From Silvibacterium sp. (lineage in GTDB: Bacteria; Acidobacteriota; Terriglobia; Terriglobales; Acidobacteriaceae), in assembly GCA_019234945.1 (NCBI GenBank), contig JAFAKX010000140.1:1-45102 (forward strand): DNA of 45,102 nucleotides. The letters are read 5' to 3'. Below, piece after piece: positions 7,787 to 39,262 of the stretch (positions are counted from its first letter, which is position 1; every line of letters starts with the position of its first letter). Position numbers and translations under genes: made by a program. The notes under the pieces are model-generated. The model ran no database searches. It worked only from the letters and a program-made list of their open reading frames with translations, and was not told the origin of the DNA.

Positions 7787-8130
7787 TCGAACTCAAGTCA
7801 GGTACACGCATTTGGATTGCTGCTGGCTTCACGGATCTGCGACGCGGCTTTCAAGGGCTCTCGACGCTGGTCGAGACGGTGCTGGAGCAAGCGCCGTATT
7901 CAGGGCATGTCTTTGTGTTCAGGGGAAAGCGCGGGGACTTGATTAAGCTGCTGTGGTTCGATGGCGATGGCCTGTGCTTGTTTCAGAAGAGATTAGAGCG
8001 TGGACGCTTCATATGGCCGCAAGCCACAAGTGGAACAGTGTCGCTGACACGTGCGCAGTTATCGATGCTGTTGGAAGGCATTGACTGGCGCCAGCCACAG
8101 AGAACATGGGAACCACAGTCGGCAGGATAA
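7783..8130 (+). CDS. tnpB: IS66 family accessory protein TnpB
   Basis: The 115-residue protein carries the signature of IS66 OrfB: WIAAGFTDLRRGFQGLS near the N terminus, then VFVFRGKRGDLIKLLWFDGDGLCLFQKRLERGRF. It starts at TTG (7783) inside the tnpA stop (TTGA overlap). TnpB is required with TnpA and TnpC for transposition in studied IS66 elements, though its biochemical role is unclear. The C terminus (LLEGIDW) is intact. Confidence 0.95.
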   Translation: MIELKSGTRIWIAAGFTDLRRGFQGLSTLVETVLEQAPYSGHVFVFRGKRGDLIKLLWFDGDGLCLFQKRLERGRFIWPQATSGTVSLTRAQLSMLLEGIDWRQPQRTWEPQSAG

Positions 8131-8182
8131 GTCACAGGATTTTGATCTTTCACTGTTACATATCTATGGCATACTCCGTGGC

Positions 8183-10373: not shown

Positions 10374-13300
10374 TCAGACCGGCGCGCCGGCCCGGGCTAA
10401 TTCATCGAGCGGGACAGTGGATTCGGGATAAATCGGCAAAACGATGGAGAATACCGTTCCTCTTCTCTCTCCGTAGTCCTGCGATTTCATCTGAATCGTT
10501 CCGTGGTGCTTCTCGATTATCTGCTTCGCTGCCCAAAGTCCAAGCCCTGTTCCCACCGTGCCTTTTGTGGTAAAGAACGGCTCGAAAAGGTGCTCACGCG
10601 ACATTCGACCAATTCCTCTTCCGTTGTCCGAGATGGTGATGCGCACTCGCTGAGTTCCTTCACCGCTGCGGGCGGAGACGCGTATTCTGATCCTGCCCTG
10701 CTCATCGAGAGCGTCAAGGCTGTTTGTCAGAAGATTCGAAAATACCTGCCGCAACTCGCCCGCAACAGCCACGGTGTTTACGTCTGCACGCCATTCATTC
10801 TGAATAATGGCGCGTTTACTGCTGATCTTGCCTTTTAACAAGTCAATCGCAGATTCCAACAATGCATTGATCGAAGTGAGCGCCGGTGCATTGGATTCTC
10901 GATAAAAACCCAGTGACTGGCGCGTGATGTGCGCTACTCGTTTGAGCTCAGCTTCAGCCATCTCCAGGTTCTGTCGTGCGGATTCTGGCAAATCACTCAT
11001 GTTCAAGGCGATGAACACCAAATTGGTCAGGGCCTCGAGCGGGTTATTGATTTCATGCGCAATAGTCGCAGCCATCCGTCCCAGAGAAGCCAGCTTCTCA
11101 CTCCGGATAAGCGCCTCCTGGGCCTGCTTGCGAGCCGTAATGTCGGTTGCAGCACCAAACCATTCGACGAGTTCACCGCTTCCGTCCAGCAGCGGGACGG
11201 CACGCGAATAGGACCACCCCTGGCTGCCGTCCACTCGCAAAACCCGGTGCTCCAGTTCGAATACGCTCTTGGTGCGAATGGATTCTCCAATTGCCGCCAT
11301 CACTCGCGGCCGGTCATCCGGATGAATGTATTTCTGCAGCCATCCGCAGTCTGGTTCACCTTCATCGGCCATGAAATCCCTTCCGCGCAATTGACGCATC
11401 TCCGACCAATCCGGGCTCATGCGATAGTGCACATCGGAACTGGCTGCCGCCAGCGCGCGGAAGCGCATCTCGCTCTCGCGCACCTGATTTTCCGTCTTGC
11501 GGCGCAGTCGCGAAAGTGCCAGATGACTTTCCACACGCACCAGCAACTCACGCGCTGAAAACGGCTTCACCATGTAGTCGTCCGCTCCGGCTTGCAATCC
11601 CTCAACACGCGATTCTTCTCCGGCGCGCGCCGAAAGCAGAATTACCGGTGTGCCGCTAACATCGGTATTGCCTCGAATTGCTCGCAAGACAGCGAATCCA
11701 TCGAGACCGGCCATCATCACATCCGCAATCACAAGGCTGGGGCGGAGTTGTTTTACCGCCTGGATGGCCCCGAGGCCGTCGCTGGCCGTGTACACCCGAT
11801 AATGCTTGTCGAGCAGGCGCGACAAGTAGTCGCGCATATCAGCATTGTCGTCCGCTATAACCAGAACTTCTTTGTCGGCGGTGGGCTCCGTAAGGAGGGT
11901 CGTCTCTTCAAAGGTTCCATCATCGGTCGCCGACGGCGGTGCGTTGGCCAGCCACCGTTCAGCTTCGTGTACATACGCTTCCGCGGTAAGGGCCGTCGAA
12001 CCCGGCGGACGCGCCCCTCCGATCCGGTCCGCCGGCAAATGCGAAATCCCGAGGGGAAGGGACAGAATGAACTTGCTGCCTCGACCCAGTTCACTCTCTA
12101 TACGGACGCTTCCGCCATGCAGCCGGACCAGTTCCTGCACGAGCGCGAGCCCGATGCCACTGCCTTCGTAGGATCTTCCGCGCGCCCCGCGAATGCGGTG
12201 GAACCGCTTGAACAACTCGGGGACCTCCTCAGGTGGAATCCCCGTGCCGGTGTCGCTCACCGTAACTTCGACTGCGGAGTTCCGAAGCTGCATCGAAATA
12301 CCGATCTCACCTTCAAAGGTGAACTTAAAAGCATTGGAGAGCAGATTGAATACAATCTTCTCCCACATCTCCCGATCGACGTACACCATCTCTCCGAGCG
12401 GCGGGCAGTCGACCGTCAGCTTCAAACCGGCGCGCTCGATGATGGAGCGGAAAAGGCTCGCCAACTCTGCCGTCAGCAAGGAAAGATCAGCTGGCTCGAA
12501 CGAAGCCTGAATGCGCCCCGCCTCAATCCTCGAAAAGTCCAGCAGGGTGTTTACGAGTTTCAGCAGGCGCAAGGAATTCCGATGAGCGAACTCCAGGCGC
12601 TGGCGGCTGGAAGCCGACAGCTCTTCCTCTTCAGCCAGCATATCTTCCAGCGGACCCATCATCAGCGTGAGCGGTGTGCGGAATTCGTGGCTCACATTAC
12701 TGAAAAATGCCGTCTTGGCGCGATCGAGTTCAGCGAGCGCTTCGTTCTTCCTGCGCTCGTTTTCATACGCCTGCGCGCTGGCAATGGCAGTAGCTATCTG
12801 CGTTGACGCCAGCTCCAGAAAGCCCCGGTAATCGTCGTCGAACTTGAGTCTTGAGCTGATGCCCGCCACGAGAAAGCCGGCGAGTTGATGCGGCAAATTT
12901 GATTTGAGCGGAACCACAGCCGCGCTGTCGGGAGGATCCCTCCAGGGACCAGGGGGCAGACGATCAAACCTATGTGCCAAATCATCAACAACTACGATAT
13001 CCTCCCGCCGCCTGCACAACTCGAAGGGCCAGATTGCAGATTCATCGCGCAAGCTGATCAATTCCGGACAAAGAGCATCGCAGCCCTCGGTTCCCGCTTT
13101 GCCTGCCAGGTGTGCAAATTCTCCCTTCCCATCAAGCAGATACACCATGGCGAACGGTGCATCTTTGCTATAGGAGGCAAGGGTTGTGACGGCATTCGCG
13201 CATGCCTCTTCCGCTGTGCCGGTTTCTGCTGACCGCGAGCCGAGGTCACGCAGAACGAGGGTGCGGCGGTCACCCACGATCTTCTCGCTGATTTCGTGAA

Positions 13301-25595: not shown

Positions 25596-26744
25596 ATGAA
25601 GTTCTCCCAGCAAACCCGCCTCACCAGAATGCTGCAGGCATTGCTGTCCATAATTCCCGTCGCGGGATTCGTTGGATGTACCCGTAGCCAGGCAATTAAG
25701 TTGCCGGATACTGAGGTGCTTGTTGCGACTCCGGTTCAGCGAGACGTGCCTGTGCACAATGAGTGGGTCGCAACTACCGATGGCTACGTGAATGCCGAGA
25801 TTCGGCCCCAGGTGGCGGGATACATCATTCGTCAGGACTACAAGGAAGGTGCGGTCGTTTCCAAAGGCCAGGTTTTGTTCGAAATTGATCCGAGACCATT
25901 TCAGGCAGACCTTGACCACGCGAATGGCGAGCTTGCGCAGGCAGAAGCGCAGTTGGGGAAGAGCACGATCGATGTTGAACGCGATACGCCTTTGGCGGAA
26001 AAGAAGGCGGTTGCCAAGGAGAAGCTGGATAACGAGATCCAGGCAAGACTTGCTGCCCAGGCGGCAGTCGCATCGGGCAAGGCAGCGGTGGAAAGGGCAG
26101 AACTCAATCTCGGCTGGACCAAGGTCACCTCGCTTGTCGATGGGGTGGCCGGCATAGCGGAAGTCCAGATCGGAAATCTTGTGGGGCCCAATGTGCGCCT
26201 CACCTCCGTATCGCAGGTCGATCCTATCAAGGTCTACTTTCCCGTCAGCGAACAGCAGTATCTGCGGGCGAGGCACCTCAGCTCCAGCGGACAACCAATG
26301 GACCTGTTCGACAGCGCACCCGAGTTGATCCTTGCCGATGGCACGGTGTATCCGCACAAGGGCAGGATTCTGCTCACCGACCGGCAAGTTGACGCCGGCA
26401 CGGGCACCATTCGCCTCGTCGCGGCATTCCCTAATCCGGGCAATGTCCTGCGACCCGGCCAGTACGGGCGCGTACGAATCCAGACCAGCACCGCCAAGGG
26501 TGCGCTTTTGGTGCCGCAGAGTGCGGTTCAGGAACTTCAGGGAGGTTACCAGGTCGCAGTTCTGGGTACCGGCAACAAGGCTAGGATTCGGCCAGTAAAG
26601 GTGGGTGAGAAGGCAGGCACGATGTGGGTGATCGACGATGGCTTGAAGCTGGATGATCAAGTCATCGTCGAAGGAATCGGAAAGGTCAAGGACGGCACGG
26701 TCGTTGTTCCCAAACCGGCAGAAATTCAGGCGGGAGGACGCTGA
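25596..26744 (+). CDS. RND efflux periplasmic adaptor subunit (AcrA/MexE-like)
   Basis: The 382-residue protein has a lipoprotein-type signal (hydrophobic stretch ending VGFC-like AGFVGC). The barrel/lipoyl half follows (EIRPQVAGYIIRQDYKEGAVVSKGQVLFEIDPRPF), then the alpha-hairpin (about 100-170), the second lipoyl half (LGWTKVTSLVDGVAGIAEVQIGNLV) and the beta-barrel and membrane-proximal domains (VYPHKGRILLTDRQVDAGTGTIRLVAAFPN, LRPGQYGRVRI). It links the inner-membrane pump to the outer-membrane channel. The pump gene starts 3 bases after its stop. A ribosome-binding AAAGGAG precedes the start. Confidence 0.95.
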   Translation: MKFSQQTRLTRMLQALLSIIPVAGFVGCTRSQAIKLPDTEVLVATPVQRDVPVHNEWVATTDGYVNAEIRPQVAGYIIRQDYKEGAVVSKGQVLFEIDPRPFQADLDHANGELAQAEAQLGKSTIDVERDTPLAEKKAVAKEKLDNEIQARLAAQAAVASGKAAVERAELNLGWTKVTSLVDGVAGIAEVQIGNLVGPNVRLTSVSQVDPIKVYFPVSEQQYLRARHLSSSGQPMDLFDSAPELILADGTVYPHKGRILLTDRQVDAGTGTIRLVAAFPNPGNVLRPGQYGRVRIQTSTAKGALLVPQSAVQELQGGYQVAVLGTGNKARIRPVKVGEKAGTMWVIDDGLKLDDQVIVEGIGKVKDGTVVVPKPAEIQAGGR

Positions 26745-26747
26745 GCC

Positions 26748-29700
26748 ATGTCCAACTTTTTCATCAGGCGGCCCATCGTCGCCATGGTTATCTCGATCCT
26801 GATGGTGATCGTTGGCGCCATCACGATCACCTACCTTCCTGTAGCGCAGTTTCCGGACATCGCTCCACCCGAAATACGCGTATGGGCCCTTTACCCGGGC
26901 GCCGATGCCGAGACCATGGAGAAAGCAGTAGCCACGCCCATGGAGCAGCAGATCAACGGCGTGGACAACATGGATTACATGTACTCGCTGAATTCCACGA
27001 ACAACTCGAGTACAGCGCTGCTGGTCGATTTCGATCTCAAAACCGACCCCAACACGGACCTGCTCCTGACCCAGTCGCGCCAGCAACTGGCCATCGGCCA
27101 GCTTCCTTCCGATGTCAACCAGATTGGCATCGACGTGAAGAAGTCTTTGACATCACCGATGATGCTGATCGCTTTGTATTCGCCGAACGGTAGTCACGAT
27201 GCGAAGTGGCTGTCGAACTACGGCTACATCAATCTGAAGGAGGCGATCGCGCGCTCATACGGCGTAGGCCTGACCCAGATCTACGGCATAGGGGAGTACG
27301 CCATGCGTATCTGGGTAAAGCCCGATCGGCTGGCCAAGCTGGGTGTCACCGTCAGCGAAGTCGTCAATGCAGTGCAATCGCAGAATACCGTCAATCCTGC
27401 CGGTCAGGTTGCCGCGGAACCGAGCATAGCAGGTCAGCCCTTCACTTATGCGGTACGTGCCCAGGGCCGGCTTCAGACGCCGGAAGAGTTCGGCAACATT
27501 GTCGTCCGCGAAGGGGCCGACGGCGGCGTGGTGCGCGTGAGAGACGTCGCCACTGTCGATTTGGGGTCGCAAGACTATAACTGGATAGCTCGACTCAATG
27601 GTCAGCCTGCCGCGCTCCTTGCTGTCTATCAGTTGCCCGGTACCAACGCTGTGCAGGCGGCGAACGGCATCCGAAAGCTCATGACGAAAATGAAGGAAAG
27701 CTTCCCCGCCGACGTGGACTACGTTGTGACCCTGGACACGACGGATGCGGTGAGGGCAGGCATCGAGGAGATCATCCTTACTCTTTCGATCGCTTTTGTG
27801 CTGGTGATTCTGGTTGTTTACCTCTTCCTGCAAGACTGGCGGGCGACCGTTATCCCCATGCTGGCCGTGCCTGTCTCACTGGTGGGCACGTTCGTTCTCT
27901 TCCCGATCTTCGGCTTTTCGGTTAATACGCTTTCATTGTTCGGCCTGGTACTGGCCATCGGCCTGGTTGTAGACGACGCCATCGTGGTTGTCGAAGGCAT
28001 ACAGCGGCACATTGAAGAGGGCCTCGCTCCGCAGGATGCGGCTCGAAAGGCGATGGAAGAACTTACCGGCCCGGTGGTCGGCATTGCGCTGGTCCTCTCG
28101 GCAGTGTTTGTTCCCACGGTGTTCATTCCCGGTATCACCGGCCGGCTGTATCAGCAATTTGCATTGACCATCGCCATCTCGGTGATCGTATCTGCCTTCA
28201 ACGCGTTGACCTTGAGCCCGGCGCTGGGAGCGCTGTTGCTCCGGCCGAAGAAAGAGACTCATGGGCCGCTGGCGAAATTCTTCGACTGGTTCAACCACCG
28301 GTTCGAAGCAGGCACGCACTTCTACGTGCAAACATCGGGCGCGCTGATTCGCAAGAGTGTCTTCGCCATAGTGGCACTGGCCGGTTTTGCCGCTGGCTGT
28401 TTCTTCTTCATAAAGGCAGTGCCCACCAGCTTTCTGCCCGACGAAGACCAGGGATACATGTACATCCAAATGCAGCTGCCCGAAGCTTCTTCCATCCGGA
28501 GCACGTCGGAAGCAGCCCGAGTGGTGGAAGATGTCCTGAAGAACACCCCGGCGGTCAAGTACTGCAGCACCTCTATCGGATTCAGCCTCCTGAGCCTGAC
28601 CCGCACCAGCTACAGTGCATTCTTTTGGGTGACCCTGCAGCCGTGGGAAGACCGGAAAAAAATTGAGGAACAATATCAGGTAGTCAAAGCGAAGTTGAAC
28701 CTGAAGCTGCTCACTCTTCCGCAGGGAACCACTTTTGCCTTTTCTCCGCCGGCAATTCAGGGCGTAGGTACCTCGGGCGGATTTCAGTTTGTTCTGGAAG
28801 ACCGCTCCGGACGCGAGTCCGAATTCCTGGTGAACAACCTGAATAAGTTCCTGGACGCCGCTCGCAAGCGGCCTGAACTCGGCTTGGTGACCACCACCTA
28901 CATCCCCAGCACGCCGCAAAAATTCGTGGATGTGGACAAGGAGAAGGTTCTCAAGCAGGGCGTCAAAATCAGCGATGTTTATGCTACTCTCCATGCCTTC
29001 ATGGGCGGACAGTTCGTAAATTACTTCAACCAGTTCGGTCGCGCGTGGCAGGTTTATGTGGAGGCGGAAGCACCTTATCGAGCCAGCCTCGACAACATAG
29101 AGCAGTTCTATGTCCGCAATGACCGCGGGGAGATGGTGCCACTTTCCGCGCTGACCCGATTCGAGTCGCGGTATGGCCCGGAATTCAAAATGTGCTACAA
29201 CGAATATTCTTCAGCGCAGATTATCGGAAGTGCGGCGCCGGGATATAGCTCGGCGCAGGCCACGGCCGCTCTGGAAGACGTCTTCAAGCAGACCATGCCC
29301 CCTGGAATGGGTTTCGATTATATGGGCATGTCTCGACAGGAGCAGAAGGCGCGAGAGGGTGTCCCGGCCTCTGTTATCTTCGGGGTCTCATTCCTGTTCG
29401 TCTTTCTAATTCTGGCCGCCCTTTATGAAAGCTGGTCGTTGCCCTTTAGCGTATTGCTGAGCACGCCGGTGGCTGTGTTCGGCGCATTCGGGGTGCTGTG
29501 GTTGCGACGCACCATCCTCGGCATGATCTTCCCGGCGTTCATGGTGCAGATTGAAAACGATGTCTACTCGCAGATTGGGCTCGTGATGTTGATCGGTTTG
29601 TCGGCCAAGAACGCCATTCTGATCGTGGAATTCGCGAAGAGCGAGTATGACAGTGGCAAGCCCCTGGTAGATGCCGCGCTGGCAGGTGCAAGACTGAGGC

Positions 29701-29954
29701 TGCGGCCAATTCTGATGACATCTTTCGCATTCGTTCTCGGCTGTGTGCCGTTGTGGATTGCGACAGGAGCAGGTTCCGTCGGCCGCCAGATCCTGGGAAC
29801 GACCGTAATCGGGGGGATGCTGGCTTCGACCGGCATTGCCATCTTTATTATTCCGGCCTTGTATGTGCTGGTGGAGCGGGTAGCGAGTTTTGGTAAGCAC
29901 GGAGAGAAGAATGCTCCCGCTCTACCGCAACCTACTGCGGTGCAGGGAGACTGA
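26748..29954 (+). CDS. RND efflux pump, inner-membrane permease (AcrB/MexF, HAE1-type)
   Basis: The 1068-residue protein has the full HAE1 layout: twelve membrane helices and two large periplasmic loops. It starts with FFIRRPIVAMVISILMVIVGAI. The proton-relay pair is present as Asp409-Asp410 in LVVDDAIVVVEGI, and the partner Lys is in GLSAKNAILIVEFAKSEYDSG. It takes substrates from the periplasm or outer leaflet and drives them out using the proton gradient. Length is normal with no damage. It is the second gene of the operon; the channel gene begins 2 bases after its stop. Substrate range cannot be read from the sequence; HAE1 pumps usually export drugs, dyes or solvents. Confidence 0.97.
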   Translation: MSNFFIRRPIVAMVISILMVIVGAITITYLPVAQFPDIAPPEIRVWALYPGADAETMEKAVATPMEQQINGVDNMDYMYSLNSTNNSSTALLVDFDLKTDPNTDLLLTQSRQQLAIGQLPSDVNQIGIDVKKSLTSPMMLIALYSPNGSHDAKWLSNYGYINLKEAIARSYGVGLTQIYGIGEYAMRIWVKPDRLAKLGVTVSEVVNAVQSQNTVNPAGQVAAEPSIAGQPFTYAVRAQGRLQTPEEFGNIVVREGADGGVVRVRDVATVDLGSQDYNWIARLNGQPAALLAVYQLPGTNAVQAANGIRKLMTKMKESFPADVDYVVTLDTTDAVRAGIEEIILTLSIAFVLVILVVYLFLQDWRATVIPMLAVPVSLVGTFVLFPIFGFSVNTLSLFGLVLAIGLVVDDAIVVVEGIQRHIEEGLAPQDAARKAMEELTGPVVGIALVLSAVFVPTVFIPGITGRLYQQFALTIAISVIVSAFNALTLSPALGALLLRPKKETHGPLAKFFDWFNHRFEAGTHFYVQTSGALIRKSVFAIVALAGFAAGCFFFIKAVPTSFLPDEDQGYMYIQMQLPEASSIRSTSEAARVVEDVLKNTPAVKYCSTSIGFSLLSLTRTSYSAFFWVTLQPWEDRKKIEEQYQVVKAKLNLKLLTLPQGTTFAFSPPAIQGVGTSGGFQFVLEDRSGRESEFLVNNLNKFLDAARKRPELGLVTTTYIPSTPQKFVDVDKEKVLKQGVKISDVYATLHAFMGGQFVNYFNQFGRAWQVYVEAEAPYRASLDNIEQFYVRNDRGEMVPLSALTRFESRYGPEFKMCYNEYSSAQIIGSAAPGYSSAQATAALEDVFKQTMPPGMGFDYMGMSRQEQKAREGVPASVIFGVSFLFVFLILAALYESWSLPFSVLLSTPVAVFGAFGVLWLRRTILGMIFPAFMVQIENDVYSQIGLVMLIGLSAKNAILIVEFAKSEYDSGKPLVDAALAGARLRLRPILMTSFAFVLGCVPLWIATGAGSVGRQILGTTVIGGMLASTGIAIFIIPALYVLVERVASFGKHGEKNAPALPQPTAVQGD

Positions 29955-29955
29955 C

Positions 29956-31425
29956 ATGAAAAGGTTCGCAATCAGCATAATCCTCCTGTCACTGGCCACC
30001 GGTTGCACAGTCGGGCCCAACTACAAACGACCCACTGTAGATGTGCCCGGCGCCTATCGCGGTGCGCCACCTTCGACGGGCAACTCAGAACCTGCAGCTC
30101 AACCCGCTGAAGAAAAGAAAGAGAAGACAACGCCGCAAACAGCAGCTCAAGCCACACAAGCAGCGGCCGTCTCTTTTGCGGATGAGAAATGGTGGGACGT
30201 CTTCAAGGACAGGCAGTTGCAGGATCTTATCCGCACCGCGATTCAGAACAACTACGACGTGAACATCGCGGCGGCGCAGATCCTTAAAGCCCAGGCCCAA
30301 TTGGGCATCACGCGCGCCGATCAACTGCCTACGATTTCCGCCGGAGCCGCGGCACTCAATGTGCAACTTCCCCAAATCAAGTCAATAACCCCCACCACCG
30401 ACACCAGCGTCGACGCGGTGGGCGCCAATCTCAGTTGGCAGCTCGATTTCTGGGGGAAGTACCGCCGCGCAACGGAAGCGGCGCGGGCAAATCTGCTGGC
30501 GAAGCGCTGGGCACGGGAATACGTCATCTCTACGCTCGTGAGCGATGTGGCCGCATCGTATTTCCAACTTCGCGCCTACGACCTTCAGCTGGAAATCGCA
30601 CGCCGCACCTTGGCTTCACGCCAGGAATCCCTCCAGCTTACTCGAACACTGGCAGATGGTGGGGCCGCCACCATGCTCGACGTGCGGCAGGCGGAACAGC
30701 TGGTCTCCGAAGCAGCTGAAACCATCCCCAATCTGGAGCGGCTTATTGAGCAGCAGGAAAACTACATCAGTACGCTCGTGGGGAAAAACCCAGGCCCGAT
30801 CGTGCGCGGATTGCCGCTGACCGAACAGCCGCATTCGCCAGAGGTACCGGCGGGACTGCCGTCCGGCCTGCTGGAGAGACGGCCGGATATCCGCGAGGCG
30901 GAGGCGCAGCTGATGGCGGCCAACGCGGAGATCGGAGTGGCCAAAGCCGCGTACTACCCCGACATCTCTTTGACCGCAACCGCCGGATACGCAAGTTCAG
31001 CACTGACCAGCCTGTTTACGGGACCAGCAGGATTCTGGGCTTTTGGAGGTACGCTGGCACAGCCCATCTTTGCCGGTGGCAGGATCAAGTCGGGGGTCAG
31101 GTATACAGAGGCGCAGCAACAGGAATACTTGCTGACTTACCGCCGGACCATTCAGCAAGCGTTTCGCGGCGTATCGGACTCGCTGGTTGGATATCAAAAG
31201 AATCGAGAGTACCGGCAGCGTCAGGAAGAGTTGGTGGTCTCAGCTCAAGATGCGGCGCAGCTCTCCCAGGATCGATTTCGGGGCGGCGCCACCGGCTATC
31301 TGGAGGTTTTGACCAATGAGACAAATGCTTTTAACGCGCAACTAGGCCTGGCTCAGGCTCAGGCGAACGAGCTTCTAAGCTTGGTCGAAATCTATAGAAA
31401 TCTTGGCGGAGGTTGGGAGCTGTAG
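29956..31425 (+). CDS. RND efflux outer-membrane channel lipoprotein (OprM/NodT family)
   Basis: The ATG at 29956 is chosen because it begins a lipoprotein signal (MKRFAISIILLSLATGC, lipobox Cys about 17) followed by the family motif TVGPNYKRP; the frame is open upstream to 29890. The 489-residue product has two OEP repeats (helical hairpins around ALAAAQILKAQAQLGITRADQLP-like and EAEAQLMAANAEIGVAKAAYYPDISL segments) and the conserved LLERRPDIR and GGRIKSGV motifs. An extra Gln/Ala/Lys-rich insertion (about 45-75) follows the N terminus. It completes the tripartite pump. Confidence 0.95.
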   Translation: MKRFAISIILLSLATGCTVGPNYKRPTVDVPGAYRGAPPSTGNSEPAAQPAEEKKEKTTPQTAAQATQAAAVSFADEKWWDVFKDRQLQDLIRTAIQNNYDVNIAAAQILKAQAQLGITRADQLPTISAGAAALNVQLPQIKSITPTTDTSVDAVGANLSWQLDFWGKYRRATEAARANLLAKRWAREYVISTLVSDVAASYFQLRAYDLQLEIARRTLASRQESLQLTRTLADGGAATMLDVRQAEQLVSEAAETIPNLERLIEQQENYISTLVGKNPGPIVRGLPLTEQPHSPEVPAGLPSGLLERRPDIREAEAQLMAANAEIGVAKAAYYPDISLTATAGYASSALTSLFTGPAGFWAFGGTLAQPIFAGGRIKSGVRYTEAQQQEYLLTYRRTIQQAFRGVSDSLVGYQKNREYRQRQEELVVSAQDAAQLSQDRFRGGATGYLEVLTNETNAFNAQLGLAQAQANELLSLVEIYRNLGGGWEL

Positions 31426-31920: not shown

Positions 31921-34452
31921 ATGCGGGAGATCTGCACCACGTGCAAGCTGGAAAGCGGTTTAAGCCGTTGGCCCGCATCGGCTCGCGCCTTCAGGGTTTT
32001 TCCGGCGCGCCAATTTCTTGCACTGCTTCTCGCCGTTCACTGCTTGGCCTTCGGAATCGAGGCCAATGCCGACGGGGGCAAGACGGGCAAGCTGGAAGGA
32101 ACAGTTTCGACCGGTGACACAGCCACTCCGTCGTATGTGGCGGCAGCGAAGGTGCAGGCGAACGGTCCGGTCACGCTTCAGACCGACACGGACGCAGAAG
32201 GAAAGTTTGCCTTCGTTGATTTGCCGGCCGGTTCTTACGTTCTGATAGCGACTGCTCCGGGGCTCGAAGGTGAACAGACGGTCGAAGTGCAGGCCAATCA
32301 GGTTTTAAGGATCTCACTGCAATTAAAGCCGACGGTTGTGACGACTTCCGTGAATGTTTCCGCTCCGGATTCAGGGGCGGAATCTCTGGTTCCAACTCAA
32401 ACCATTACGGAGAAGACCCTGCGCGATGCTCCAAATGTCAACGAGAGAATGGAGAGCCTGCTTCCTCTCGTGCCTGGAGTAGTTCGGGGTCCTGACGGCC
32501 GCATCAACATGAAGGGCGCCCGGAATACGCAGAGCGGCGCCTTGGTGAATAGCGCGAATGTCACGGATCCGGTGACCGGCAGTCCCGCCATAAATCTTCC
32601 CATCGATGTGGTCTCGTCCGTCCAGGTCGTTTCGAATCCCTACGACCCCCAATACGGGAAGTTTACCGGGGCGCTTTCAACAGTCGAGACGAAGACAGCG
32701 AACTACGAGGGTTTTCACTACTCAATCCAGAACATTCTTCCACGCTGGCGAGACCGCGGCGGCAGCATCGTCGGCATCGGAGCAGCCACTCCGCGAATGA
32801 CCTTTACGGGTCCTCTGATCCGGGACAAAGTGGCATTCATGCAATCGCTTGAGTACCGCTTTGTGCGCACGCCGGTCAACAGCCTTCCGCCAATGCAAAG
32901 GGACACGACGTTAGAGAGCGTCGACTCCTATACCCAGAGCGATCTGAAGATCAGCCCGAAACAAACCGCGACTATGTCTCTGGCTGTTTATCCCCAAAAG
33001 CTCCAGTACATGGGACTGAATACATTCACGCCCCAGCCATCGACTGCGGACTTTCACCAGCGCGGGTACGAGCTGTATGGGCAGCATCGGTACGTTACCG
33101 GAGCGGAGAGCGCGCTGACTTCGCAGCTCAGCTATAAGACCTACGATGCCGATGTTACCGCGCAGAGTAACGAGCCTTATCAGTTACTTATCGATACTAC
33201 GGAAGGCGGGTACTTTAACCGGCAGCAGCGGAATACGTGGCGATTCGAGGGACAGGAGACTTATCAGTTTGCGCCGCGGCACTTTCTCGGCACCCACCAG
33301 TTCAAAGCAGGTCTGAACTATGCCCACTCTTCTTACGACGGGCGGCAGGTTTTTCTTCCTGTCGAATTAATAGGCGCTTCGCGTTCACCGATCGAGCGGA
33401 TTGCCTTTACTGCTCCAACTTCCTATAGCGTCGATCAGAACGAGGCTGCGTGGTTTGCGGGGGATCAGTGGGCCGTTACGAATCGCCTGATGCTGGACCT
33501 CGGCGTGCGTTTCGACAACGACTCGGTGACAGGTTCCACGCATGCGGCTCCCCGTGCAGGTTTCATGCTCGTGCTGACGAATGACGGCAAGACTCTGCTC
33601 AAGGGAGGCGTGGGGATGTTTTATGACCGTGTCCCGCTCATGCTTCCGGTTTTCGAGCGCCTGCCGGAGCGTACGGTGTCGATTCTCGACACAACTGGTC
33701 AGGTCTCAAGCTCGACGTTCTATCAAAACCGCATCGTTGGCGGTCTCCGCAATCCGGAGAGCATCTCCTGGGATGCCGCAATCGACAGACAGGTGTCCGA
33801 GCGCCTCACGGTTCGGTTCGCGTACGAGCAGCGCAATACAACGAAAGTTTTCACTGTCTCGCCGATTTCCTATGATAACTCGGGCGTCTTGGCGCTCTCC
33901 AACAGCGGACGCGATTTCTACCGCGAGTTTCAGGTCGCAGGCAGATACCAGGCTTCGCGCTTTACTCTGAACGGCTCCTACGTGCGCTCGCGAGCTTACG
34001 GAAACCTCAATGATCCCGCGTTGTTCTTCGGAAACTATCCTCAGGCGGTAATTCAGTCGGATGCCCGCGCGCGTCTGCCTTTCGATGCCCCGAACCGCTT
34101 TCTCTTCTGGGCTGACATCGCCGGTCCCAAGAAGTTCACGCTGATCCCGGTCTATGACATCCACACAGGTTTTCCTTACTCGCCAGAGAACGAATTCCGA
34201 GAATATGCCGGACTGCCTAATAGCAGACGTTATCCATGGTTTTCATCGATGGACCTGCAGGTATCGCGCCCGTTTGGGGTGCAATTCGGGGAAAGTCATC
34301 ACCTCCACTTCAGGGCCGGTTTCGGCGTCTTCAATGTCTTCAACCACTTCAACCCGCGAGACGTGCAGAACATCGTTGCGAGCAACCAGTACGGTGATTT
34401 CTTCAACGATGCATGGCGCGAATACCGTGGCAAATTTGTAATCCAGTTCTGA
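31921..34452 (+). CDS. TonB-dependent receptor-like outer-membrane protein with CarboxypepD_reg domain
   Basis: The 843-residue protein has a long N terminus and a signal segment (RQFLALLLAVHCLAFGIEANA, about 35-56). A carboxypeptidase-regulatory-like beta domain follows (about 60-135, with DAEGKFAFVDLPAGSYVLIATAPGLEG-type strands), then a plug-like region (about 140-260: LRDAPNVNERMESLLPLVPGV, NMKGARNTQSGALVN) and a beta-barrel ending in the aromatic FVIQF typical of outer-membrane barrels. It belongs to the Acidobacteria/Oar-like TonB receptor group. It heads a five-gene unit; the next ATG lies 2 bases after its stop. Coupling to lipid-synthesis genes suggests transport of a lipid head group or its precursor, but no ligand is evident. 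Confidence 0.87.
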   Translation: MREICTTCKLESGLSRWPASARAFRVFPARQFLALLLAVHCLAFGIEANADGGKTGKLEGTVSTGDTATPSYVAAAKVQANGPVTLQTDTDAEGKFAFVDLPAGSYVLIATAPGLEGEQTVEVQANQVLRISLQLKPTVVTTSVNVSAPDSGAESLVPTQTITEKTLRDAPNVNERMESLLPLVPGVVRGPDGRINMKGARNTQSGALVNSANVTDPVTGSPAINLPIDVVSSVQVVSNPYDPQYGKFTGALSTVETKTANYEGFHYSIQNILPRWRDRGGSIVGIGAATPRMTFTGPLIRDKVAFMQSLEYRFVRTPVNSLPPMQRDTTLESVDSYTQSDLKISPKQTATMSLAVYPQKLQYMGLNTFTPQPSTADFHQRGYELYGQHRYVTGAESALTSQLSYKTYDADVTAQSNEPYQLLIDTTEGGYFNRQQRNTWRFEGQETYQFAPRHFLGTHQFKAGLNYAHSSYDGRQVFLPVELIGASRSPIERIAFTAPTSYSVDQNEAAWFAGDQWAVTNRLMLDLGVRFDNDSVTGSTHAAPRAGFMLVLTNDGKTLLKGGVGMFYDRVPLMLPVFERLPERTVSILDTTGQVSSSTFYQNRIVGGLRNPESISWDAAIDRQVSERLTVRFAYEQRNTTKVFTVSPISYDNSGVLALSNSGRDFYREFQVAGRYQASRFTLNGSYVRSRAYGNLNDPALFFGNYPQAVIQSDARARLPFDAPNRFLFWADIAGPKKFTLIPVYDIHTGFPYSPENEFREYAGLPNSRRYPWFSSMDLQVSRPFGVQFGESHHLHFRAGFGVFNVFNHFNPRDVQNIVASNQYGDFFNDAWREYRGKFVIQF

Positions 34453-34454
34453 TT

Positions 34455-35195
34455 ATGAGAGCTCACATTATTTTTGGTGCTTTATTGGTCGCACTCGCAG
34501 CGAACACTTCGAGTGCAGCGGAGAACGATGGTCTTCCAAACGGCAATGTAGTCGCAGCCAGGATGGTGGCGGGAGATGCGGAGCGGCAAACGCTCGCCGC
34601 CGGCTACCACGGAATGCGGCGCTATGTTCTCGATAACGAGAAAATGCACAAGCACGCCGAAATTGTTGTTCGGGTCGAGTGCGGCGCTGACGGGACGAAG
34701 CACTTCGAGCTTGTCTCTCAGGAGGGCTGGAAGGGCGCTTATAAGCATGTGGTGGGCAGGATGCTCGAGACGGAGGCGGAGACATCGCACCTGGAGAGCC
34801 GCTTCAAGACTCGTATCAGCCCCGATAATTACGACTTCCGCATGGTGAGGACCGCCCTGCTGGATGATCGGATGGCCTACGTAATCGAGATCGTGCCAAA
34901 GCGCCACGAGAACCATCTGATCAAGGGCCAGATCTGGGTCGACGCCCAGGACTATGCGGTTGCACGGATTGAGGGTGAGCCTGCGGAGAACCCATCGTTC
35001 TGGATTCACAGCGTGCATTTTGTTCACACCTACCAGAAGAGCGGGCCGCTATGGTTTCCGGCATCCACCGAGAGCGACACCGAAGTACGCATTTTCGGCG
35101 CTACGACTCTGACCATCAATTACTTCGATTACTCACCGAATTTGTCATCGCCGGAGACGGCGAGTGCAGGTCGGCCAGGAGGTCTGACGCCATGA
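34455..35195 (+). CDS. LolA/outer-membrane lipoprotein-sorting-like periplasmic protein
   Basis: The ATG at 34455 gives a 246-residue protein with a signal peptide (MRAHIIFGALLVALAANTSSA). The body has the features of the LolA-like half-barrel fold: YRVxVxVxG-type strands (EIVVRVECGADGTKHFELVSQ), DNYDFRMVRTALLDDRMAYVIEIVPKR, GQIWVDAQDYAVARIEGEP and WFPASTESDTEVRIFG with a final NYFDYSPN. Proteins of this fold carry lipids or lipoproteins across the periplasm. It overlaps the nucleotidyltransferase start by ATGA, so the two are translationally coupled. Lipid binding is inferred from the fold. Confidence 0.75.
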   Translation: MRAHIIFGALLVALAANTSSAAENDGLPNGNVVAARMVAGDAERQTLAAGYHGMRRYVLDNEKMHKHAEIVVRVECGADGTKHFELVSQEGWKGAYKHVVGRMLETEAETSHLESRFKTRISPDNYDFRMVRTALLDDRMAYVIEIVPKRHENHLIKGQIWVDAQDYAVARIEGEPAENPSFWIHSVHFVHTYQKSGPLWFPASTESDTEVRIFGATTLTINYFDYSPNLSSPETASAGRPGGLTP

Positions 35196-35995
35196 AAGAG
35201 ATTGGCAGTCTTCGCTATTCACGGAAGCGGCGCCCACGGCGGGTTAATCAGTGCCTCATTCTGGCGGCCGGGAATGGCAGCCGGTTGGCTCCGTTGTCCG
35301 GAGGCCTTCCCAAGCCTCTCATGCAGGTCCACGGTCGATCATTGCTGGAGCATGTGATTCTCGATGCTCATGAAGCAGGGATCGAAAAGTTCGTGATTGT
35401 CGTTGGTTACGGCGCCGAAGCCATGCGAGGATGGTTTGCCAACCATTCGTTCGGGGACATATCGGTCACCCTGGTAGAGAATCCCGAATACCACAAGGCC
35501 AACGGTGTTTCCGTTCTCAAAGCCCGGGGATATCTCAGCGACCCATTCCTACTGCTCATGTCGGACCATATCTTCGAGCCCTCCACAGCTCGGGACCTGC
35601 TCAATGAACCGTTGAGCCCAGGTGAAGTGATTCTCGCAGTCGACTCCAAAATCGATCGGATCTTCGATCTCGACGACGCGACCAAGGTGAAACGGGTTGG
35701 ACGCCATATCGTCGCCATCGGCAAGGAAATTTCGGATTACGATGCCTTCGATACGGGCATGTTCCTCTGCAGTCCGGAGCTGTTCGACGTTCTTGAATCG
35801 GCCAAAAAAGATGGTAACTGTTCGTTATCCGATGGCATGCGAACTCTGGGGCGAAGCCGAAAACTGCGCGCCTTCGACATCGGGGATGCTTCATGGCAGG
35901 ATGTCGATACTCCGGAGGCGCTGGCCTACACAGAAGGCATCTTTGACGCCCAGTTCTGCAGGCCTCCAATTCAGGAGGCATTTACTCATGTCTAG
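35192..35995 (+). CDS. Nucleotidyltransferase resembling inositol-phosphate cytidylyltransferase
   Basis: The ATG at 35192 overlaps the preceding TGA. The 267-residue protein has the NTP-transferase signature LAAGNGSRL (24-32), KPL (41-43), NPEYHKANGVSVLKA (97-111), MSDHIFE with a metal-binding type Asp125, and WQDVDTPEAL near the end. This motif set is most like inositol-1-phosphate or phosphocholine cytidylyltransferases, which make CDP-alcohols from CTP and a phosphorylated alcohol. The downstream gene carries a CDP-alcohol phosphotransferase domain, which supports CDP-activation over other sugar nucleotides. There are no membrane segments. The substrate is not determined by the sequence. 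The stop overlaps the next gene start by 8 bases. Confidence 0.85.
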   Translation: MKEIGSLRYSRKRRPRRVNQCLILAAGNGSRLAPLSGGLPKPLMQVHGRSLLEHVILDAHEAGIEKFVIVVGYGAEAMRGWFANHSFGDISVTLVENPEYHKANGVSVLKARGYLSDPFLLLMSDHIFEPSTARDLLNEPLSPGEVILAVDSKIDRIFDLDDATKVKRVGRHIVAIGKEISDYDAFDTGMFLCSPELFDVLESAKKDGNCSLSDGMRTLGRSRKLRAFDIGDASWQDVDTPEALAYTEGIFDAQFCRPPIQEAFTHV

Positions 35996-38357
35996 GAGAT
36001 TGGGGCCGCGCGCTCTCGCCGCAATCCTGGGGGCTGCGCTTCTTGGCTATCTAATCCGGCGAGCCGGACCGGCAACGCTGCTTGAGAGCCTTCACCGCCT
36101 GGGTTGGGGCCTCGCGCTGATCATAGCTTTGGGCGGAGTTTCGCACCTGATGAAAACCTGGGCCTGGAGGCTCACGCTGGCAGTCTGCGGCGCCCAGGTT
36201 TCATGGGTGCGCATGTTTCAGCTTCGGCTGATGTCGGAAGCCGCGGGCCAGATAGGCGCCCTTGGACAGTTATTCGGCGAGGGCGTGCGTGTCTCCGCGT
36301 TGAGCGAGGACATTCCAATCGACAGCCGTGTGTCCTCGGTTACTCTCGACCGTGCGCTTTTTATCGTTGCGGGAGCCATGATCAGTGTCATCGGCGTCGC
36401 TGCCGCATTGCTTGTCGTGCCACTGACCGATGCACTGCGGTTATACGCGATTCTTTTTGCCATCATCGTCGTCGGCCTGCTTTGGATCGCTGCCGTTGCT
36501 GTTGTGCGGCGGTGGCCGTTCCTTTCGGCCAGCGGTCGAGCGCTCGGCCGAATCCGCTACATTGGCGGCCGTGTACAAGGCGTGCTTCCGGTGATTGAGT
36601 CGGTCGAAAAGAGGCTCTTCGAGTTTCATCGCAGCGCGCCGGTTGCCTTCTGGGCGAGCCTGCTGCTCAACCTGGTCTGCCATGGTCTGGCGGTCCTGGA
36701 GGTCTACCTCGTTCTGTTCCTCTTGGGAGTAGATATCGGACTGCTCGGAGCGCTGGTATTCGAAGCCGTGACCAAGCTGGTGAATATCGCGGGCACACTG
36801 AACCCGGGCAACATTGGGACTTATGAAGGGGGCAACATTCTTATTGCCAGAATGTTCGCGCTGCCCGCTTCCGTAGGCCTGGCTGTGGCGGTTGCGCGGC
36901 GGGCGCGGGCCATCTTCTGGGCCGCAGCTGGAAGCCTTTGCTTTCTGTTTCTGTCGAGGAACCAGGCGCGGCGCGGTTCGGATCAGAGTTCCACGGATCT
37001 GGCTGAGAACTCTCAGGCTTCGGAAGCGAACGGAGAAATAAGCCGATCGCTCACCGCATTCATTTTCTTAAACGAAACCGGATCGCCACTACTCCGCGTC
37101 GGCACACTTCCTATTTTGCTTCGTACGATTATCGGTATACGGAGAGCAGGAGCAACGAGGATCATCGTATACGCAGACGCAGCCACGAGACGCAAAGCAG
37201 AGCGAGAATTGCTGGAGATCGGGCGGCTTCCCCGCTTTGTAGAGTGGATCGAACCGGGCTCAGTAGTCTCACTGCCCCGATTGTTGCGGCAGGTCCTATA
37301 CGATTCGAGAGCGCACGAGCTGCTGGTAATGGATGGAATGACCACCTATTATCCTGCCTTGTTTCGTAAGGCAAGCGAGTGGATCGGGGATGGTGCGTTG
37401 TCGCTTACCACTGCCGGAGAGCCCATCGGCATCAATGTACTCTCAGCCTGTTTTGCGCGAGACGCCGCAGATCTCTGCCCTTCTGACGTTCACACTTTCG
37501 ACGAACTGCAATCCTGGCTGGCGTTGAGTCCACAGGTTCAGCGTGAGGAAGTACAGCCCGAGTCCTGGCAGCGAGTCGTCACGCCGGAAGATCGCATCGC
37601 CGCAGAGCGGAAGCTGGATCAATGGCTGGTGAAGCCTACAGACGGTGTCTTCGCGCGCATGAATCGCCGAGTATCCATCCCGATCAGCCGCCAATTGGTC
37701 AAGCTGCCGATTACGGCCAACATGGTCAGCCTGTTCACTCTCGGCGTTGGCTTTCTCGCTGCTATCTTTTTTGCCCGGGGCGGCTATTGGAATATGCTCG
37801 TCGGCGCGATTCTCTCTGTCTGGGCAAGCATCCTCGATGGCTGCGATGGAGAAGTCGCGCGGCTCAAGCTGATGGAGTCCGCCTTCGGCTGCTGGCTCGA
37901 GACTGTCTGTGACTGGCTGTACTACCTGTTCATCTTCTCGGGCATGGCCATCGGGCTCTCTAAGGCTTTCAGACCTGCGACGTTCACGGTATGGGGAATC
38001 ATGCTTGTCTTCGGAGCTGTAATGAGCTTCCTGGTCACCGGCCTTGGCCGGCACAAGCTTGCTAAAGACCGTCCTGAAGAATATCTGAAGATCTGGCAGG
38101 CAAATGCGGAGAAGCGACGTTCCAACCCGATCCTATACATCGGACGACACATGGAGTTCATCATCCGGCGATGCTTTCTCCCGTACCTGCTTCTGTTTTT
38201 TGCCCTCCTTAACATTATGAAAGCTGCCTTCGCCGGGGCGGCAATCGGCACCAATGTGGTTTGGTTGATGTCACTCTATTCCTACGGCGCTTTCGCCCGG
38301 GTCCGAGGGCCCGGAGAGAAGGGCGTTAGCGTTTCTCCAGATCCCGTGATCCCCTGA
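35988..38357 (+). CDS. Fusion: flippase-like membrane domain + degenerate nucleotidyltransferase + CDP-alcohol phosphotransferase
   Basis: The start at ATG 35988 has AGGAGG upstream and overlaps the previous gene by 8 bases; the product is 789 residues. Residues about 5-320 form a multi-helix domain like LPG_synthase_TM/UPF0104 (TLNPGNIGTYEGGN). Residues about 353-560 resemble an NTP-transferase fold (LTAFIFLNETGSPLLRVGTLP, GATRIIVYAD) but lack the LAAGxGxRL loop. Residues about 590-770 are a CDP-alcohol phosphotransferase with D617-G-C-D620-G-E-V-A-R625 and D642. The third acidic position of the DxxDGxxAR...GxxxDxxxD motif is Glu638, not Asp. The middle and last domains together resemble archaeal-type bifunctional IPCT/DIPP synthase. 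It should transfer a phospho-alcohol from CDP-alcohol to an acceptor, in or at the membrane. Confidence 0.87.
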   Translation: MSRRLGPRALAAILGAALLGYLIRRAGPATLLESLHRLGWGLALIIALGGVSHLMKTWAWRLTLAVCGAQVSWVRMFQLRLMSEAAGQIGALGQLFGEGVRVSALSEDIPIDSRVSSVTLDRALFIVAGAMISVIGVAAALLVVPLTDALRLYAILFAIIVVGLLWIAAVAVVRRWPFLSASGRALGRIRYIGGRVQGVLPVIESVEKRLFEFHRSAPVAFWASLLLNLVCHGLAVLEVYLVLFLLGVDIGLLGALVFEAVTKLVNIAGTLNPGNIGTYEGGNILIARMFALPASVGLAVAVARRARAIFWAAAGSLCFLFLSRNQARRGSDQSSTDLAENSQASEANGEISRSLTAFIFLNETGSPLLRVGTLPILLRTIIGIRRAGATRIIVYADAATRRKAERELLEIGRLPRFVEWIEPGSVVSLPRLLRQVLYDSRAHELLVMDGMTTYYPALFRKASEWIGDGALSLTTAGEPIGINVLSACFARDAADLCPSDVHTFDELQSWLALSPQVQREEVQPESWQRVVTPEDRIAAERKLDQWLVKPTDGVFARMNRRVSIPISRQLVKLPITANMVSLFTLGVGFLAAIFFARGGYWNMLVGAILSVWASILDGCDGEVARLKLMESAFGCWLETVCDWLYYLFIFSGMAIGLSKAFRPATFTVWGIMLVFGAVMSFLVTGLGRHKLAKDRPEEYLKIWQANAEKRRSNPILYIGRHMEFIIRRCFLPYLLLFFALLNIMKAAFAGAAIGTNVVWLMSLYSYGAFARVRGPGEKGVSVSPDPVIP

Positions 38358-38422
38358 TCTGCAAATTTTGCGAGGGAGCGAGTGGCCGCGGTGCTCGGGC
38401 TGCCGGAGGCTAGAATTCCAGC

Positions 38423-39262
38423 ATGGACGCAAGTTCGGGCCAGGAGATCGAAACAGGAAGTTTTGCGTCCGCTCCAAACGTCTTATGGCCGCCCAGCTCG
38501 ATTCGAGTCGTCGATTGGAATATCAATCGCGGGCTGAAATTGAACGAAATCATCGAGTTTCTCAGAAGTGCCGGAGCCGACCTGATCCTGCTGCAGGAAT
38601 GCGATCTAAACGCCCGGCGAACGCATCGGCTGAATATCGCGCGAGAGATAGCCCAGAAGCTGAACATGAACTACGTCTTTGGACGCGAGTTTCAGGAGTT
38701 GACTCAGGGATCGAGCGAATCTCCCGCATACCACGGACAGGCCACTCTCTCACGCTGGCCATTGTCGAACCCTCGCATCATCAGGTTCAGGAAGCAATCG
38801 AGCTTCTGGCGTCCGCGCTGGTACCTTCCCGATATCGAGCCATTGCAGGAGAGAATCGGCGGAAGGATGGCCCTGGTAAGCGAGGTGAGTATCGCCGGAA
38901 GATCGCTGATGAGCTACAACCTGCACCTTGAGAGCCGCGGCGACGACCGGTTGCGCTGCTCGCAACTGGATGAATGTTTCGACGACGCTCGTAACCTTAG
39001 GCCTGCCACGCCTCTTATCCTCGCGGGCGATTTCAACCTGGACGTATCGAGCGCCGCTGCAAATGCCGTCGCACAGGCACAGTTTCGCAGCGCGTTTCTG
39101 CCGCCGCCGTCGCGAACTACACCGAATACGCTATTCGATCGCGGACGGACCATCGACTGGGTTTTCACGCGGGGACCTCTTCGCAGCGACCGCGCCTCTG
39201 TCCACACCTCGGTTTCGGCGTCGGACCATTATCCGCTCTCGGTGCTGCTGGCGATTGCCTGA
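38423..39262 (+). CDS. Endonuclease/exonuclease/phosphatase-family hydrolase
   Basis: The 279-residue protein has the EEP fold motifs in order: VVDWNINRG with Asn33, LLQECD with Glu59, SYNLHLES, LAGDFNLD (about 201-208) and SASDHYPLSV at the C terminus (Asp-His). Related enzymes are phosphodiesterases or phosphatases acting on nucleic acids, sphingomyelin, or inositol phosphates. It has no signal peptide. It lies 65 bp after the fusion gene in the same direction, so it may be the last gene of the operon. In that setting a phosphomonoester or phosphodiester of the lipid pathway is a likelier substrate than DNA. This is inference. Confidence 0.88.
   Translation: MDASSGQEIETGSFASAPNVLWPPSSIRVVDWNINRGLKLNEIIEFLRSAGADLILLQECDLNARRTHRLNIAREIAQKLNMNYVFGREFQELTQGSSESPAYHGQATLSRWPLSNPRIIRFRKQSSFWRPRWYLPDIEPLQERIGGRMALVSEVSIAGRSLMSYNLHLESRGDDRLRCSQLDECFDDARNLRPATPLILAGDFNLDVSSAAANAVAQAQFRSAFLPPPSRTTPNTLFDRGRTIDWVFTRGPLRSDRASVHTSVSASDHYPLSVLLAIA

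Follow-up and report, generated by a model that had tools for sequence, protein, structure and literature searches.

A 45,102-nucleotide stretch of a Silvibacterium sp. genome (contig JAFAKX010000140.1; hereafter the window) carries five intact open reading frames (ORFs), all on the plus strand at positions 31921-39262, that recur together as a cassette in related genomes. This cassette may well serve specifically to synthesize and export an outer-membrane lipid with a phospho-head group, a reading that we hold at about even confidence. The readout resting on computation consists of a conserved gene set, presence/absence linkage among its members, two swapped cores on one shell, the folds of the encoded proteins, and the motifs of the NTP transferase (NTPT) and of the EEP-superfamily enzyme (EEP). 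The five genes are as follows, with lengths in amino acids (aa):

31921-34452, plus strand: TonB-dependent receptor, 843 aa, of probable Oar-type architecture (Pfam PF13620, PF25183, and PF00593)
34455-35195, plus strand: LolA-like periplasmic carrier, 246 aa counted from the ATG at 34455, with an N-terminal hydrophobic signal
35192-35995, plus strand: NTPT, CTP:inositol-1-phosphate-cytidylyltransferase-like, 267 aa (NF041135 and PDB matches; intact LAAGxGxR loop)
35988-38357, plus strand: fusion of flippase-like, cytidylyltransferase-like, and CDP-alcohol phosphotransferase (CDP-AP) parts, 789 aa (LPG_synthase_TM and CDP-OH_P_transf)
38423-39262, plus strand: EEP-superfamily phosphodiesterase/phosphatase, 279 aa (PF03372, Exo_endo_phos, 77.6 bits)

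A sequence-only reading of this locus had described five co-directional genes of an envelope-lipid theme that form one joint unit. ORF calls reproduce its spacings between consecutive genes, from receptor to EEP, of +2, -4, -8, and +65 bases, and its family assignments hold in Pfam and NCBIfam (for the LolA-like protein, by predicted fold), with none of the five window proteins reaching a curated NCBIfam cut-off. The joint unit passed a gene-order check in related genomes, and the envelope-lipid theme is supported.

A conserved and linked gene set

Gene neighbourhoods were surveyed using as queries the genes of the window cassette and those of the second copy in the same genome, and loci that were recovered twice (L039, L090, L094-L096, L107, and L108) were counted once. 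The complete component set is present in 21 distinct loci, 13 of which are window-like (type A) and 8 of which have a second arrangement (type B):

Type A loci: window, L034, L040, L041, L042, L043, L044, L045, L047, L050, L091, L092, L093
Type B loci: L031, L032, L033, L103, L104, L105, L106, L176

Among these, contig ends cut L043 (in the receptor) and L092 (in the EEP), the order in L045 is NTPT-fusion, receptor, LolA, EEP, and L032 and L092 have their LolA-like gene, a more distantly related one (116-117 bits), upstream of the receptor. The -4 and -8 overlaps recur at equal length in L034, L046, and L047. Six further loci are incomplete (L046, L048, L038, L049, L097, and L051), the last three of them cut by contig ends, and in L049 the flippase and CDP-AP are separate ORFs.

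Linkage was scored across 397 genomes of the order, the window's own included, with counts that ignore genome kinship; for query P0001 (spanning the flippase and CDP-AP parts) and the receptor, scoring was limited to the top two first-look candidates of each genome. P0001 matched in 22 genomes, 14 of them in the CDP-AP part, and the other 8 comprise one contig-cut cassette (L097) and seven genomes whose match is confined to the flippase part. With the EEP as query (E<=1e-30), there were 18 matches, 17 in cassette loci (15 complete, 1 contig-cut, and 1 decayed) and 1 alone, spanning 15 genomes, namely, the 14 with a CDP-AP match and G185. The lone gene (L177, G185:C135, 6894-7667; 57% identity), with the other cassette genes absent in 14 kb, is the sole exception to linkage. 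All 15 receptor matches (E<=1e-180) lie in complete cassettes, in 12 genomes that are all among the 14; G337, where the cassette is contig-cut, and G364, where it is decayed, account for the other two.

Within the window's own genome and 60 relatives, EEP matches of at least 55% identity are exactly the five cassette copies, and the sixth match falls to 35%. With up to 15 candidates scored per genome, receptor identity there is 53% in cassettes and 36% at the next match. LolA-like proteins are widespread, with matches in 37 of these 61 genomes; those of at least 46% are cassette copies only, but the LolA-like gene next to the G034 cassette reaches just 32% identity.

Cassette carriers include Edaphobacter aggregans DSM 19364 and Acidobacteriaceae bacterium KBS 83, and a match to the fusion protein comes from Alloacidobacterium dinghuense. 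Among 72,556 plasmid records, we found no fusion matches at E<=1e-20.

Operon-like packing alone is no proof of joint function, and the five genes might be chance neighbours that share none. Against this stand the 21 loci in two main arrangements, the presence/absence linkage, and the equal-length overlaps elsewhere, which leave coincidence extremely improbable; the gene set is confirmed not to consist of chance neighbours.

Two cores on one shell

The type A core pairs an NTPT resembling CTP:inositol-1-phosphate cytidylyltransferase (IPCT) with the flippase/CDP-AP fusion, and the type B core pairs a LicC-like NTPT, whose best PDB match is the phosphocholine cytidylyltransferase 1jyk, with separate flippase and CDP-AP genes. 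Mean identities were calculated from 11 of the 13 type A loci (without L043 and L092) and 6 of the 8 type B loci (without L032 and L176). For the shell, they are 0.61 within and 0.52 between types for the receptor, 0.53 and 0.42 for LolA, and 0.58 and 0.52 for EEP; for the core, the corresponding values are 0.61 and 0.27 (NTPT), 0.54 and 0.27 (CDP-AP), and 0.50 and 0.23 (flippase). Because shell identity is kept between types and core identity is low, we infer that the shell stayed and that NTPT, flippase, and CDP-AP were swapped together. Both types occur together in two genomes, G419 and the window's own, the latter carrying a complete, divergent type B cassette (L031, G000:C161, 6578-13702) with an unfused flippase and a LicC-like NTPT at 12084-12866.

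Correlations among the pairwise distances of the five genes lie between r 0.73 and 0.94 across the 11 type A loci and between 0.60 and 0.98 across all 17, a pattern that fits joint inheritance as judged from sequence distances. Distances of inositol-phosphate synthase (MIPS) were considered as a control for vertical inheritance and not used; the L045 ORF is not MIPS (20-24% identity to the others), and the correlations ranged from -0.14 to 0.32.

NTPT and the fusion protein

The likeness of the NTPT to inositol-phosphate cytidylyltransferases, proposed in the sequence-only reading, is supported by several comparisons. Its best NCBIfam match is NF041135 (bifunctional IPCT/DIPP synthase; about 129 bits versus a cut-off of 580), and its best PDB match is 4jd0 (listed as a nucleotidyl transferase and presumably an IPCT), followed by 2xme and 4mnd. 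The protein is IPCT-like over residues 20-245 and retains an intact nucleotide loop, LAAGNGSR at residue 24, by motif scan and alignment to 2xme. The fusion also scores about 80-83 bits to NF041135, below this single-chain cut-off, the halves here lying on two genes. Its parts are as follows:

35988-36974, plus strand: fusion residues 1-329, MprF-type flippase domain (LPG_synthase_TM, PF03706; best NCBIfam match HpnL, below cut-off)
37044-37622, plus strand: fusion residues 353-545, cytidylyltransferase fold without the nucleotide-binding LAAGxGxR loop
37638-38315, plus strand: fusion residues 551-776, class I CDP-alcohol phosphotransferase domain
37836-37913, plus strand: CDP-AP signature DxxDGxxAR..GxxxExxxD, with Glu638 as the third acidic residue, usually Asp

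The fusion of a membrane protein to a CDP-AP, as called earlier, is borne out and can be sharpened by fold comparison (structure model with pLDDT 80.9 and pTM 0.54) to an MprF-type flippase and an AF2299-type CDP-AP, AF2299 being the best structural match of the latter and IPCT/DIPPS its best NCBIfam match. The middle domain looks catalytically dead because the nucleotide-binding loop is lost. The third signature residue is Glu in 66 of 68 fusion-type proteins (Asp in the other 2) and in 9 of 9 further relatives. Since both the Pfam match and the fold are clear, the CDP-AP domain is predicted to work like a class I CDP-AP despite this Glu.

Receptor, LolA-like carrier, and EEP

The receptor combines a CarboxypepD_reg N-domain with a barrel, and the Plug domain (PF07715) was not detected in Pfam at E<=0.01; the Oar-type TonB-dependent transporter comprises CarboxypepD_reg, barrel, and Plug domains according to the available text of PMC6434023. 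The LolA-like protein falls below the cut-off of Pfam LolA_like, yet its predicted fold is clear, and it has both the LolA fold and the signal sequence that define a LolA-fold carrier. The EEP retains its conserved motifs, which we take to be catalytic, shows no signal peptide by hydropathy, and is weakly similar to a sphingomyelinase (7cne, E 0.007).

The sequence-only reading had left two directions side by side, making and exporting a product or taking one up and remodelling it. Under the second, the receptor would import a foreign phospholipid or phosphodiester, the EEP would cleave it, and the core would rebuild the cell's own lipid; known TonB receptors mostly import, and the intact EEP motifs and the sphingomyelinase similarity would suit such a role. 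An EEP without a signal peptide is difficult to place in this scheme, and no inner-membrane importer is among the identified members of the five flanking families that recur in at least 3 of 24 loci (sigma factors, sigma-54 regulators, efflux parts, sensor kinases, and an isoamylase-like gene, the last in 3 loci). We rank making and exporting as the better half of the proposal and regard uptake with remodelling as quite unlikely.

Deeper relatives and the head group

Among 396 genomes of the phylum, 53 have a match (E<=1e-20) to a profile of the middle and CDP-AP domains, and we examined 20 loci from 20 of these 53, several of the loci being cut by contig ends. Fourteen of the 20 encode an NTPT, either as its own gene or within a fusion (a fifteenth, in L157, by a 25-bit match only), 14 have a flippase, and 3 an EEP. 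Directly upstream of NTPT-flippase-CDP-AP, an inositol-phosphate synthase is encoded in L150-L153 (four genomes, two genera, one family), and in L154 one follows one gene after a bifunctional NTPT/CDP-AP. Against TIGR03450, whose cut-off is 638, the synthases of L150 and L154 reach 456 and 490 bits, and both pass the PF01658 cut-off; those of L151-L153 were identified through similarity to these two. Adjacency of MIPS to NTPT-flippase-CDP-AP in four deeper loci points to CDP-inositol chemistry. The presence of MIPS anywhere in a genome was rejected as a marker, with PF07994 found in 14 of 16 genomes that have a cassette, decayed copy, or core locus but also in 57 of 61 kin genomes with or without the set.

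A different chemistry is suggested by L145 (2767-9869), which encodes a phosphoenolpyruvate (PEP)-mutase/NTPT fusion, two phosphonopyruvate-decarboxylase halves, a phosphonoacetaldehyde-dehydrogenase-like protein (top NCBIfam match, lactaldehyde dehydrogenase), CDP-AP, flippase, and an NTPT nearer type B, and which looks like a phosphonate version of the core. PEP mutase family PF13714, which we assume also covers lyase paralogues, was uninformative as a marker of such cores, occurring in 16 of 18 genomes but also in 11 of 14 controls, Escherichia coli and Bacillus subtilis included. Judged from these sequences, the core appears to be an all-purpose module for phospho- or phosphono-alcohols activated with CDP.

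The head group of the window version could likewise be a phospho- or phosphono-alcohol other than inositol phosphate. The LicC-like NTPT of type B and the phosphonate-type genes of L145 lend themselves to this view, as does the CDP-glycerol donor of AF2299 (available text of PMC4634129). It is set against the IPCT-like stretch of the window NTPT, the IPCT/DIPPS match of the CDP-AP part, and MIPS adjacency in relatives with an IPCT-like NTPT, and we consider it somewhat unlikely; by this comparison, the substrate of the window type is likely inositol phosphate.

Other arrangements were seen around related cores. L140 (756-10247) and L141 (1989-11610) contain NTPT-(flippase)-CDP-AP, then two large proteins (~800 and ~900 aa) and an EEP gene; in L140, the one locus scanned, one large protein has no Pfam match and the other matches type I phosphodiesterase/sulfatase. 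This is possibly another envelope version. A deltaproteobacterial metagenome-assembled genome carries, in L053 (3155-7086), an EEP (with a signal-peptide-like start by eye), CDP-AP, NTPT, and a HAD hydrolase, the latter beside the NTPT.

A candidate route and the points against it

In the route that we propose, based on protein family and relatives, the NTPT would make CDP-inositol from CTP and inositol-1-phosphate, and the CDP-AP of the fusion would pass inositol phosphate on to an alcohol that is most likely a membrane lipid, with the middle domain possibly serving as a scaffold. The MprF-type flippase domain of the same chain could then move the product to the outer leaflet, a step proposed because MprF likewise couples a synthase to a flippase. 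The LolA-like protein might carry the product across the periplasm to the probable Oar-type receptor, which would place or export it at the outer membrane, and the EEP may remove phosphate from, or hydrolyse, an intermediate in the cytoplasm. In its most specific form, an MprF-like synthase-flippase chain whose enzyme part is a CDP-AP both produces an inositol phospholipid and flips it, the LolA-like carrier and the TonB-dependent transporter deliver it to the surface, and an exchangeable core (inositol or LicC type) sits on one export shell, so that one cell may show two head groups; we put this forward tentatively, as a possible rather than a probable account.

Several observations weigh against a synthesis-and-export line. 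TonB receptors are mainly known as importers. The cassette is rare, being found in 14 of the 397 genomes of the order, and three copies are decayed or partial: L046, a second type A copy in Edaphobacter aggregans, has a truncated receptor and EEP and a fusion in two frames; NTPT, LolA, and receptor are absent from the stretch examined in L048; and L038 (G000:C244, 1-1670), a third copy in the window's genome, consists of the LolA-like and flippase genes only. Promoter- and terminator-like sites in the window are at shuffle (chance) level, and no riboswitch was found upstream of the receptor gene. MIPS is not in the window, with a PF07994 match on another contig (G000:C8), and only its adjacency in the deeper loci is informative, mere presence not. 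Neither receptor nor LolA occurs in any of the 20 deeper loci, several of which are contig-cut, and the export shell is therefore an addition rather than a requirement. The window CDP-AP keeps 7 of the 8 signature residues and departs from the strict signature at D3, which is Glu, in a motif (D1xxD2G1xxAR..G2xxxD3xxxD4) that the available text of PMC4634129 terms absolutely conserved. According to the same text, AF2299 and AfDIPP synthase, the nearest solved CDP-APs, process no lipids, and the acceptor may therefore be soluble.

The product of the core could accordingly be a soluble phosphodiester of the kind found in hyperthermophiles, for example di-inositol phosphate or glycerophospho-inositol, with the "flippase" acting as an exporter or regulator and the receptor and LolA-like protein serving another step. 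Soluble acceptors of the nearest solved CDP-APs (available text of PMC4634129), the structural match to AF2299, and bifunctional NTPT/CDP-AP proteins without a flippase in the stretch examined (L154, L158, and L159) favor such a product. A flippase-type gene is nevertheless part of types A and B (with the fold tested for A only) and of 14 of the 20 deeper loci, and a cytoplasmic solute would give a LolA-fold carrier and an outer-membrane receptor no obvious role. We judge a soluble product unlikely and retain lipid synthesis and export as the preferred reading.

Genomic surroundings

The source genome is incomplete (3.5 Mb, 256 contigs, 72% complete). Just upstream of the cassette, the window contains a tight tripartite efflux operon (25596-31425) encoding an HlyD-family protein, an RND-type pump (by eye), and an OEP outer-membrane efflux protein, and an IS66-family transposase gene lies at 8051-9742. 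The most widespread of the other flanking families consists of ECF-type sigma factors, which lie near 6 of 24 loci (three members scanned), and one such gene (L103, 15219-16202) is directly upstream of a type B receptor gene. The partial copy L038 is followed by an amidase-like ORF (by eye). Flippase-only relatives (L035, L037, L098-L102, L109, and L178) are without the other cassette genes in the stretch examined; in L101 (8004-10031), the flippase-type domain is fused to an HD_5 domain. L036 (2685-10841) has a receptor and LolA-like pair and a flippase-type gene, then glycosyltransferase-like and YdjC-like genes (these two by eye), and NTPT and CDP-AP were not found there in the neighbourhood survey.

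Comparison with known systems

The cassette bears on two wider questions, namely, how lipids other than lipopolysaccharide and lipoproteins travel to the outer membrane and whether TonB-dependent receptors can act as lipid exporters. Being compact, occurring in one genome as two copies that differ in their cores, and offering candidates for a synthase-flippase, a carrier, and a receptor, it brings both questions within reach of testing.

Compared with the bifunctional IPCT/DIPP synthase and AF2299 of Archaeoglobus (4mnd and 4o6m), the window has its intact-loop cytidylyltransferase on a separate gene, an added flippase domain, and Glu for the third signature Asp. The window fusion shares the fold of its flippase domain with MprF (flippase plus lysyl-phosphatidylglycerol synthase; 7duw), whereas the enzyme part of MprF is an aminoacyl-phosphatidylglycerol synthase and the C-terminal part of the fusion is CDP-OH_P_transf. 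We take the ybhP-clsB-ybhN operon to encode an EEP protein, a phospholipid synthase (ClsB, presumably of phospholipase-D type), and a UPF0104/LPG_synthase_TM membrane protein, in the same order in E. coli and with NTPT, receptor, and LolA absent. This operon, described in Salmonella (available text of PMC9241728), is a compositional parallel to the window set. The type B NTPT resembles LicC among the LicC/PntC head-group cytidylyltransferases, whose pathways attach the head group to glycans via LicD-like transferases (available text of PMC6697681), whereas here CDP-AP and flippase accompany the NTPT. PEP-mutase/NTPT fusions are reported in that paper to be common, and L145 is a deeper relative with a fusion of this known type.

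The sequence-only reading knew of no described pathway with this set, which overlooks a putative Bacteroidetes cluster that comes close. In the available text of Heaver et al. 2022 (PMC9246714), an NTP transferase and a CDP-alcohol phosphatidyltransferase are proposed to make CDP-inositol and an inositol lipid, a route that is putative and unconfirmed, and a review repeats the proposal (available text of PMC10191378). The word start "Acidobacteri" occurs 0 times in the main text of PMC9246714, and we found no paper treating the gene set in Acidobacteriota among open-licence papers searched by title and abstract start. By family and gene content, the two clusters are alike in joining an NTP transferase to a CDP-AP, and at the family level only, the LPG-synthase homologue and carboxypeptidase-regulatory-like protein of Bacteroidetes (BT_1521 and BT_1527) resemble PF03706 of the fusion and PF13620 of the receptor. 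From the portions of PMC9246714 available, the Bacteroidetes cluster has MIPS nearby, absent from the window and adjacent in Acidobacteriota only in deeper relatives, and a HAD hydrolase in whose place the window has the EEP. The window also differs in its LolA-like carrier, in the fusion of flippase and CDP-AP via a dead-looking domain, and in the existence of a second core type. If our reading is true, a CDP-inositol (Kennedy-like) route for bacterial inositol lipids would extend from Bacteroidetes to Acidobacteriota. On this comparison, the Acidobacteriaceae set looks like a variant of the Bacteroidetes idea, with a fused synthase-flippase, a LolA carrier, an EEP in place of the HAD hydrolase, and exchangeable cores.

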